In this document: in pieces, positions 1-1,921 of the stretch
Numbering within the stretch: the first letter of the stretch is position 1
Layout: every line of letters starts with the position of its first letter
From: Hyphomicrobium sp.
Lineage (GTDB): Bacteria > Pseudomonadota > Alphaproteobacteria > Rhizobiales > Hyphomicrobiaceae
Length of the DNA: 64,000 bases
Assembly (NCBI GenBank): GCA_022843145.1
Contig: JALHOF010000009.1
Location: forward strand, 61,025 to 125,024
Direction: 5' to 3'
Position numbers and translations under genes: made by a program
The notes under the pieces: model-generated
What the model was told of the DNA's origin: nothing
Databases searched by the model: none
The model's input: the letters and a program-made list of their open reading frames with translations, nothing else

Positions 1-87
1 GAACTTTCCATCGGCGGCGTTGGCGGTGACGGCACCCGACGTTGCGATGGCGAGAGCGACGAGGGTGGTTGCGATGATCGACTTCAT
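1..87 (-). CDS. Tiny secreted peptide, array copy 1 (C-terminus cut by window edge)
   Basis: Only the first 29 codons lie in the window. They encode the same N-terminus as copies 2 and 3: MKSII, a hydrophobic stretch, then an ANA signal-peptidase site followed by ADGKF. The start is fixed by an AGGAG ribosome-binding site 7 bases upstream of the ATG, identical in all copies. The start-to-start distance to the next copy is exactly 187 bp, so this is part of a tandem gene array that probably continues beyond the window. The function is not recognised. A sec-type signal peptide is clear by inspection; export to periplasm or outside is inferred. Confidence 0.7.
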   Translation of the reverse strand, partial: MKSIIATTLVALAIATSGAVTANAADGKF

Positions 88-142
88 GGGATGTCTCCTG
101 GGGGTGTGACTGTGTTGTTGCAGTGGGCTAGAGGCGCGGTGA

Positions 143-274
143 TCAGTGACCGTTGAGCTGGATCTGCTGGAAGAACTTCGCAGCGTCGAACTTTCCATCG
201 GCGGCGTTGGCGGTGACGGCACCCGACGTTGCGATGGCGAGAGCGACGAGGGTGGTTGCGATGATCGACTTCAT
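143..274 (-). CDS. Tiny secreted peptide, array copy 2 (43 aa precursor)
   Basis: The precursor has 43 residues: a signal peptide of about 24 residues starting MKSII, ending in an ANA cleavage site, and a predicted mature peptide of only 19 residues, ADGKFDAAKFFQQIQLNGH. The mature part has a spacing of F, FF, I and L that could form a small amphipathic helix, and ends in QLNGH. A longer reading frame runs upstream, but the AGGAG site 7 bases before this ATG and its conservation in all copies fix the start. Gene and flanks form a 187-bp repeat unit almost identical to copy 3, with no terminator between them, so cotranscription is likely. No known family is recognised. Confidence 0.72.
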   Translation of the reverse strand: MKSIIATTLVALAIATSGAVTANAADGKFDAAKFFQQIQLNGH

Positions 275-329
275 GGGATGTCTCCTGGGGGTGTGACTGT
301 GTTGTTTCAGTGGGCTAGAGGCGCGGTGA

Positions 330-461
330 TCAGTGGCCGTTGAGCTGGAGCTGCTGGAAGAACTTCGCAGCGTCGAACTTTCCATCGGCGGCGTTGGCTG
401 TGACGGCACCCGACGTTGCGATGGCGAGAGCGACGAGGGTGGTTGCGATGATCGACTTCAT
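330..461 (-). CDS. Tiny secreted peptide, array copy 3 (43 aa precursor)
   Basis: This is a near-identical paralogue of copy 2. The mature peptide differs by one residue (FFQQLQLNGH instead of FFQQIQLNGH) and the DNA differs at only a few bases per 187 bp, including the intergenic spacer, which points to very recent duplication or gene conversion. The signal peptide, ANA cleavage site and AGGAG ribosome-binding site are conserved. Function unknown. Selection for the protein is suggested because indels between copies are absent or in frame (compare copy 4). Confidence 0.72.
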   Translation of the reverse strand: MKSIIATTLVALAIATSGAVTANAADGKFDAAKFFQQLQLNGH

Positions 462-516
462 GGGATGTCTCCTGGGGGTATGACTGTGTTGTTTCAGTGG
501 GCTAGAGGCGCGGTGA

Positions 517-687
517 TCAGTGGCCGTTGAGCTGGATGTCCTCGAAGAACTTCTCGGGGATAACGCCGCCGTTGCGCTCTTGAAGCTGCTTGAAGAAGTC
601 CTCGGCAAAGGTGGAGGCGTTGGCGTTGACGGCGCCCGCTGTTGCGATGGCGAGGGCGACGAGAGCGGTTGCGACGATCGACTTCAT
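517..687 (-). CDS. Tiny secreted peptide, array copy 4 (56 aa, duplicated mature motif)
   Basis: This is a 56-residue precursor with the same signal peptide type (MKSIVATALVALAIATAG, ending NANA) and the same AGGAG ribosome-binding site. The mature part is about 32 residues, 13 longer than in copies 2 and 3, and holds the motif twice: EDFFKQLQERNG followed by EKFFEDIQLNGH. The array spacing grows by exactly 39 bp (226 against 187), an in-frame change. It is the older, diverged member of the array. Function unknown. Confidence 0.7.
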   Translation of the reverse strand: MKSIVATALVALAIATAGAVNANASTFAEDFFKQLQERNGGVIPEKFFEDIQLNGH

Positions 688-737
688 GGGATGTCTCCTG
701 GGGTGCGGTTGAACTGATGCGAAGGGATTGGTTGGGA

Positions 738-881
738 TCAGCGGGCGTCGAAGATGCCGTGGACGGTGACGATCGACTGGGTGCGGATGAGGTCGGAGGT
801 CACGTTGTCGGCCTTGGCGGACACAGCGCCTGTGGTTGCGATGGCGACGCCCATGATTGCGGCGAGGACGAAGGACTTCAT
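738..881 (-). CDS. Tiny secreted peptide, array copy 5 (47 aa, divergent mature part)
   Basis: This 47-residue precursor is the gene nearest the divergent promoter region. It starts MKSFVLAAIMGVAIATTGAV and has an AKA signal-peptidase site; the upstream AGGAG site has the same layout as the other copies. The mature segment (about 23 residues, beginning DNVTSD and ending VHGIFDAR) has lost the FF..Q.NGH pattern, so the family keeps the export signal while the cargo has diverged. It is shorter than 60 residues and easily missed by gene callers. Function unknown; probably the first gene of the array operon. Confidence 0.62.
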   Translation of the reverse strand: MKSFVLAAIMGVAIATTGAVSAKADNVTSDLIRTQSIVTVHGIFDAR

Positions 882-997: not shown

Positions 998-1021
998 AAT
1001 ATAAAACGATACGTCTCGTAT
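998..1021 (-). promoter_or_regulatory. Probable promoter and operator of the secreted-peptide array
   Basis: Read on the minus strand this is ATACGAGACG, three variable bases, then CGTTTTATATT. It matches, at 20 of 24 positions and in the orientation facing its own gene, the element at 1238-1261 in front of the divergent tetR-like gene. A -10-like TATATT occupies 998-1003; the -35 region (1021-1026) is poor. The centre also reads as the inverted repeat ATACG-N3-CGTAT. The best reading is a binding site for the neighbouring TetR-family protein over the core promoter. Inference only. Confidence 0.55.
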
Positions 1022-1232: not shown

Positions 1233-1261
1233 TTTTCATACGAGACGAGCCGTTTTATAAT
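1233..1261 (+). promoter_or_regulatory. Probable promoter and operator of the tetR-like gene
   Basis: A TTTTCA hexamer (1233-1238), a 17-bp spacer and a perfect TATAAT (1256-1261) make a good sigma-70 type promoter 28 bp upstream of the tetR-like ATG. The spacer contains ATACGAGACG, and the region 1238-1261 repeats the element at 998-1021 on the opposite strand with 4 mismatches in 24. Autoregulation together with control of the divergent peptide array is inferred. Confidence 0.58.
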
Positions 1262-1288: not shown

Positions 1289-1921
1289 ATGACGACAACG
1301 ACAATACCGCCGCGGCGTGCGCCGGGCCGGCCGCGCAGCGACGCCACACGGCAGGGCATTCTAGATGCGGCGGTGGATCTGATGGCAACTCAGTCCTATC
1401 GCGACATCACGGTCGAGGGCATCGCGGCGCGAGCCAAGGTCGGCAAGCAATCGATCTACCGGTGGTGGTCGTCCAAGGCCGACCTGGTGCTAGAGGCTTA
1501 TACCGAGCGCTCGCTCTACAGGCTTCCCGCGCACCTGCCGTCGGGCGATGTCTTCGCCGACCTCGAAGGCAACCTCGTGCGCTATTTCATGGTGCTGCAG
1601 CAGGAGATGGTGTCGAAGGGCGTGCGCAGCCTGGTTGCGGAGGCGCAACTCGACGAAACGTTCCGCGCCAAGTTCTACGAAGCCGTGTGGAGGAAGCGGT
1701 GCGAGGCCGTGCACGAGATTCTACGGCACGGCATCACACTCGGGCAGATCCGGCCCGACGTCGACATCGAGACGGTCGCGCACGTCATCCACGGCGCGAG
1801 TTGGTATCGCATGCTGTCGGGGACCTCGCGCCCCTTCGACGACGGCTATGCGCGGCGCGTGGTCGGCTTGCTGCGCGACGGCATCGCATTGCGGACGCCC
1901 GTCGCGCCAGCCGCGACCTGA
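1289..1921 (+). CDS. TetR/AcrR-family transcriptional regulator
   Basis: The protein has 210 residues. The N-terminal part carries the TetR-type DNA-binding domain: GRPRSDATRQGILDAA at about residues 13-28, then the helix-turn-helix ITVEGIAARAKVGKQSIYRW at about 40-59. The remaining 145 residues are the helical ligand-binding and dimerisation part typical of the family; the ligand cannot be read from sequence. The start was chosen at the ATG preceded by GGTGGAG and a good promoter; the frame is open further upstream but without a ribosome-binding site. It is divergent from the secreted-peptide array, and the shared element in both promoters suggests it represses the array and itself. Confidence 0.88.
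   Translation: MTTTTIPPRRAPGRPRSDATRQGILDAAVDLMATQSYRDITVEGIAARAKVGKQSIYRWWSSKADLVLEAYTERSLYRLPAHLPSGDVFADLEGNLVRYFMVLQQEMVSKGVRSLVAEAQLDETFRAKFYEAVWRKRCEAVHEILRHGITLGQIRPDVDIETVAHVIHGASWYRMLSGTSRPFDDGYARRVVGLLRDGIALRTPVAPAAT

Follow-up and report, generated by a model that had tools for sequence, protein, structure and literature searches.

Bacterial regulators of the TetR type are known from the TetR/tetA plan, in which a one-component regulator is encoded divergently from its target operon. Repeated short exported units are known from the yeast alpha-factor, a multicopy peptide precursor, and from the chaplins, a multigene set of exported peptides; HtrA/Deg-type proteases with small exported partners provide a third point of comparison. 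The window analyzed here, a stretch of 64,000 nucleotides from Hyphomicrobium sp., begins with an array of tiny peptide genes on the minus strand (positions 1–881) that is divergent to a TetR-family gene. Divergent order, operators before both promoters (predicted here), and TetR_N and TetR_C_11 domains are shared with the TetR/tetA plan, whereas the target operon encodes tiny peptides of predicted export instead of an efflux pump or enzyme. As in the alpha-factor type of precursor and the chaplins, a short exported unit is present in several copies, either as tandem genes or as repeats within one open reading frame (ORF); the likeness is one of organization, and a relation in sequence is not claimed. 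Unlike those systems, a form with four repeats per protein is predicted to fold, and no processing gene is common to the arrays. At 15 of the 16 loci examined, the gene for this related four-repeat protein adjoins one for an HtrA-type protease, resembling HtrA/Deg systems with small partners, while the window array has no such neighbor. The preferred reading, to which we assign roughly an even chance, is an operon, derepressed through TetR, whose product is a short helical envelope peptide exported in many copies.

The initial annotation described a minus-strand array of tiny genes with sec-type starts, AxA sites, and a common AGGAG ribosome-binding site, and this description held, with four complete genes and one cut gene of 43 to 56 codons. 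AGGAG precedes the ATG by 7 nt in 5/5 genes, and each gene opens with a signal-peptide-like sequence as read from its letters (basic start, hydrophobic core, AxA). Gene 1 (738–881, 47 residues) ends in GIFDAR and has a divergent mature part, by eye without the FF motif, i.e., the F-D-x-x-x-F-[FWY] unit. Gene 2 (517–687, 56 residues) carries the motif twice by eye (FAEDFFKQLQ and IPEKFFEDIQ), gene 3 (330–461, 43 residues) has the predicted mature part ADGKFDAAKFFQQLQLNGH, and gene 4 (143–274, 43 residues) differs from gene 3 by one residue. Gene 5 is represented by its 5′ part (1–87), cut by the window edge with a scaffold gap directly beyond. Predicted mature parts of genes 1 to 4, with cleavage after AxA placed by eye, are 23, 32, 19, and 19 residues long, within the range of 19 to 32 first proposed; the QLNGH ending attributed to most copies is present in the three complete distal genes and absent from gene 1. 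A tandem repeat at positions 1–553 (TRF: 187-bp unit, 3.0 copies, 97% matches; L003 10026–10578) argues against chance as the source of the array repeat.

Extension upstream, as the initial annotation had suggested for counting copies, revealed a 10-N scaffold gap directly before position 1 and one more complete peptide gene copy beyond it (L003:9852–9983). The contig ends at this gap overlap exactly by 119 bp, so the copy beyond the gap may be the very gene cut by the window edge; the array thus holds at least five genes, with a copy number that this assembly does not settle, and a count of six was dropped because of the same overlap. Downstream, a strong fold (z −4.39) lies 3′ of the last array copy, and no intrinsic terminator was called 3′ of the array on the array strand. 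Searches of the window's own genome with two array peptides returned the array only, plus one match at E 0.82, and gene 1 pairs with the other array genes at weak E-values. A broader profile recovered one further single gene in this genome (E 1.1e-4; G000:C22, L270:5109–5240; DCFFEDLQKSG). This distant gene has two cysteines in its mature part.

The divergent tetR gene (1289–1921, plus strand) encodes a 210-residue regulator with TetR_N and TetR_C_11 domains, PF00440 and PF16859 scoring above their Pfam cut-offs (49.1 bits with a cut-off of 24 and 73.9 bits with a cut-off of 32); NCBIfam equivalogs match it far below theirs. The unit is larger than initially annotated: the array stands as read, but divergent tetR and two operators belong to it. 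Of the 103 family genomes, 13 have a TetR orthologue at E 3e-57 or better, in favor of the preferred reading, and nothing else reached 1e-25. A scan of public genomes identified 12 close TetR loci (47–78% identity) among the best 80 of 337 relatives, in MAGs named Hyphomicrobium, Hyphomicrobiaceae, Hyphomicrobiales, or Rhizobiales, the next match among those 80 being an actinobacterium at 43%. A plasmid search with TetR gave eight records, the five listed being at 36% identity. When the window and the 12 close public loci were compared, an intact gene for a predicted small exported protein was present near TetR in 11 of the 13 (L003, L050–L056, L058, L059, L097; L051 and L056 are the same records as L039 and L044), which supports the preferred reading. 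The gene lies 1.6 kb from TetR in L059, and a different 101-residue exported protein in L057 was left out of this count. No peptide gene was found near TetR in L060, which speaks against the preferred reading.

Reading frames were conserved in the relatives compared, with no pattern of frameshifts or stops of the kind that the initial annotation had named as counterevidence; the exception is L057:3340–3560, where the peptide gene beside TetR, by eye a relative of a 94-residue type, looks interrupted. Nei-Gojobori dN/dS was below 1 in 19/19 chosen pairs (0 to 0.62; point estimates, several from pairs with few changes). The 94-residue proteins, for instance, gave 0.08, and the same-genus pair G001 and G003 gave 0.40, with three replacement changes in the mature part and nine in the signal-peptide part. 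These values favor the preferred reading, in which the frames are functional. Mature parts beside TetR vary strongly (FDAAKFF type, VHGY..AYG type, the 94-residue protein with internal repeats, QWCPPG type), and their divergence between genera, such that one shared target is not evident, weighs against it. Mature parts that change quickly next to a conserved regulator, together with multiple gene copies, would suit antimicrobial or bacteriocin-like peptides aimed at close relatives. However, dN/dS indicates purifying and not diversifying selection, helix amphipathicity does not exceed that of shuffles, no immunity or exporter gene is shared beside the single-motif arrays, and the peptides were not placed in such a class: no curated Pfam or NCBIfam family reaches its cut-off for them, and PADLOC gave no match at E 0.01. 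We consider a bacteriocin-like role highly improbable. Phage families (PHROGs) matched at E 0.027 or weaker.

Two putative operators lie between the array and tetR: ATACGAGACGTATCGTTTTAT before the array (1001–1021, minus strand) and ATACGAGACGAGCCGTTTTAT before tetR (1238–1258, plus strand). The array starts about 120 nt from an operator that it shares with divergent tetR. Across the 3.93-Mb genome, the operator pattern ATACGAGACGNNNCGTNTTAT is matched perfectly at just two sites, which both lie in the array–tetR interval, and with three mismatches at two more, compared with four matches in all for a backward control pattern; the exclusive position of the perfect pair supports TetR control of the array. 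The operator before tetR overlaps a promoter-like site (TTTTCA-17-TATAAT, 1233–1261, plus strand), the only promoter-like match of that region, which is weak on its own since one was found where shuffles predict 0.6. By eye, the operator before the array has a geometry similar to that of the tetR promoter and operator. When an operator matrix was built for each locus without the locus tested, 10 of 13 loci showed a site in the 1 kb preceding tetR, against two matches in 97,102 other bases of the same loci and none in 325,153 control bases, in further agreement with the preferred reading. One of the two background matches lies about 108 bp before the L059 peptide gene. L054, L059, and L060 had no such upstream site by this matrix, which counts against the preferred reading. 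L044 has its peptide genes upstream of tetR and on its strand, with sites preceding both. In a comparison of G001 with G003, the intergenic stretches that look best conserved by eye are the operators and the peptide leader. Patterns for EcfG, RpoE-like, and strict sigma-70 promoters were each found before 0/30 peptide-gene starts.

A second palindrome, TCACGNNNNCGTGA, was observed with at most one mismatch in 11 of 29 peptide-gene upstream regions (shuffles: mean 0.5, maximum 3), a count that is post hoc because the palindrome was first spotted by eye. The signal is sharp at a spacer of 4, other spacers giving 0 to 3 of 29. It is located at about −105 to −140 in L028, L206, L208, L209, L210, L213, L216, and L245 and at other distances in L035, L276, and L050. 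This palindrome is possibly the switch of arrays that lack a window-type TetR.

Beyond the TetR-linked loci, a profile of single-motif peptides gave matches at E ≤ 0.003 in 32 of the 103 family genomes, some of the weak matches being to the signal peptide only. Rows of two to four single-motif genes are present in L028, L043, L206, L208, L209, L213, L216, and L272 and also in another family (f30; L225, L274). In a second format, four units of about 20 residues lie within one protein of predicted export; such four-repeat proteins were found in 14 of 103 family genomes (20 matches) and in 2 of 397 genomes of an order sample, both from the window's family. The ORF set comprises 19 ORFs from 21 loci (L205 repeats L235), of which 18 have four units and that of L183 has fewer. 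No four-repeat protein was found in the window genome or by plasmid search, and the array, with one or two units per gene, is not a member of the HtrA-associated four-repeat type. A matrix of 64 units from 16 four-repeat proteins ranked window genes 2, 3, and 4 (3/3 tested, gene 1 being outside the test) higher than every one of 2000 shuffles; of 39 single-motif peptides, 23 reached p<0.01 and 16 fell short. The test is not wholly independent, as the four-repeat proteins were first found via a window peptide at weak E-values. Repeat identity in the four-repeat family was 0.547 for the same position between species, 0.502 for different positions, and 0.600 within a protein, values that prove neither fixed repeat positions nor full homogenization. 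Recurrence of the motif in tandem genes and in-ORF repeats is consistent with the preferred reading.

Other repetitive exported genes were also seen. L272:4617–5374 holds two tandem genes for 74-residue exported proteins, each with three internal repeats around FFEQQQLYGEN, and a third gene that is less similar, so that repeated genes and within-gene repeats occur at once. L030:10427–11158 encodes two adjoining exported proteins with TGP(A/R)GN repeats, by eye unrelated to the F-D-x-x-x-F-[FWY] family, and L275:4441–5206, from another family, encodes two His-rich 91-residue exported proteins with identical translations, in tandem and 490 bp apart.

In the same-genus loci G001 and G003, the operators are conserved and the position of the array is taken by a single peptide gene, which favors the preferred reading. 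One ORF, presumably usg, is common to these two loci and the window and is nearby in all three. A single gene at the same place with a shared ORF nearby argues that the array is a lineage-specific expansion. Such an expansion might be a passing tandem duplication without benefit, with the single gene as the functional state, an explanation that concerns copy number and not the genes themselves. It would fit both the single gene of G001 and G003 and the closeness of genes 3 and 4, which differ at 4 of 187 positions (two silent changes and one replacement in the gene, one change in the spacer). Several genera, and two genomes of another family, have independent rows of two to four genes, which runs counter to it and, with in-ORF repetition, argues for a recurrent benefit; we regard passing duplication as unlikely.

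A Trypsin_2+PDZ (HtrA-type) gene is next downstream on the same strand in the 15 HtrA-linked four-repeat loci (L029, L031–L033, L231–L236, L238–L242), L237 being without one, and Pfam confirmed both domains in 7/7 tested neighbors. Eight of the 16 four-repeat loci also hold a LysR-like ORF family, named by eye. A more specific form of the preferred reading would have the F-D-x-x-x-F-F helix serve as activator, decoy substrate, or inhibitor of HtrA/Deg-type periplasmic proteases, with the four-repeat protein as the covalent version and the tandem genes as the free version. The nearly constant HtrA-type neighbor and the fit of the three window peptides to the four-repeat matrix both point this way. 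On the other hand, no HtrA gene is shared beside single-motif arrays, the window genome lacks the four-repeat protein and has only distant HtrA proteins (34–40% identity), and adjacency alone does not show interaction or direction of effect. For a connection to HtrA, the only lead comes from the related four-repeat format, and we consider this form unlikely.

Across 29 single-motif loci, many on short contigs, no ORF family was common to more than five, and no shared exporter, processing peptidase, importer, receptor, immunity, or HtrA gene was found. Most single-motif arrays elsewhere have no window-type TetR adjoining, a further point against the preferred reading. Structure prediction placed a signal helix and one helix at residues 31–42 in the 43-residue precursor, which favors the preferred reading, but at modest confidence (pLDDT 68.9, pTM 0.30). 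The four-repeat protein was modeled as a confident folded repeat domain (pLDDT about 90 over the repeats, pTM 0.62). Compared with PDB folds, this model had no match at E ≤ 0.001 (four listed, best E 7.1). The four-repeat profile matched Toxin A chains (E 3.4e-8 to 3.9e-6, no stretch significant alone) and HUS1 (E 0.03) among PDB sequences, both taken as chance hits to be expected of a repetitive profile; the single-motif profile found no related solved structure there, its two matches being at E 0.46 and 0.53. An amphipathic, membrane-active helix was rejected, hydrophobic moments of 8/8 segments not exceeding those of shuffles (lowest p 0.097), a result that also tells against the preferred reading.

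These models and neighborhoods bear on two further explanations. In one, the array would supply a pheromone precursor in many copies, the four-repeat ORF would encode a polyprotein precursor, and TetR would sense the signal, whether directly or indirectly. Multiple copies of short exported peptides, repeats with similar cores, and variation of mature parts between genera are in keeping with such signaling, but no receptor, importer, or processing peptidase gene is shared beside single-motif arrays, and a confident folded domain with four units in nearly every ORF suits a folded protein over a cleaved precursor, making a pheromone very unlikely. Alternatively, the peptides could be an abundant structural component of envelope, sheath, or matrix, copy number translating into mass. 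Small exported products made in abundance are a typical feature of coats, as in chaplins, and the multicopy and repeat formats would agree with this; yet Pfam and NCBIfam gave no amyloid or surface motif, and a dedicated TetR suggests a conditional product. We find a structural role quite unlikely. For the signal, bacteriocin, and coat explanations alike, the partner genes or motifs needed are absent from what was searched. Regarding the function first annotated, short, exported-type, multicopy genes with selected frames stand, while signal, toxin, and bacteriocin roles stay conjectural; "envelope-active factor" is the most plausible of the options offered.

Under the preferred reading of a TetR-derepressed peptide operon, the locus would be a self-contained regulated unit of a TetR repressor and a divergent operon of at least five Sec-exported peptide genes. 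TetR would bind two near-identical operators, at its own promoter and before the array, and on this proposal would repress both itself and the peptide operon until released by a small ligand. A single transcript would then give many precursor copies, from which signal peptidase would remove about 24 residues; export and cleavage are predicted from sequence features, which tempers this part of the reading. The free peptide of about 19 residues (F-D cap plus one short helix, FDAAKFFQQLQL) would accumulate in the periplasm or outside, where it would bind to a protein of the envelope or cell surface and act in that way. More motif units, and so presumably a higher dose, would come from duplicating the gene in tandem or from repeating the motif within an ORF. 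Of this scheme, the computations establish the genes, selection on their frames, the linkage of TetR and operator, and the recurrence of the motif, whereas repression, ligand, single transcript, export, cleavage, site of action, and dosage are its proposed parts. A wider and improbable proposal is a family of envelope mini-regulators built on one helical unit, F-D-x-x-x-F-F, in two formats: free peptides from arrays, TetR-switched in the window lineage, and a folded protein of four units whose gene accompanies that of an HtrA-type protease. Proteolysis would be tuned by the number of exported units, copy number acting as the dial.

No account of such a peptide family was found in the open PMC literature, and the passages found in PMC10117765 do not deal with one. 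Neither the exported peptide family nor its two formats appear to have been described within what was searched, while the regulatory plan is familiar. The locus thus presents an exported mini-protein family outside the curated libraries searched, whose linked regulator and defined operator give direct access to inducer and target. A motif that occurs either in tandem genes or repeated inside one protein, in the second case with an HtrA-type gene nearby, offers a testable route to function, and the array illustrates how tandem duplication may set gene dosage in small secreted proteins.
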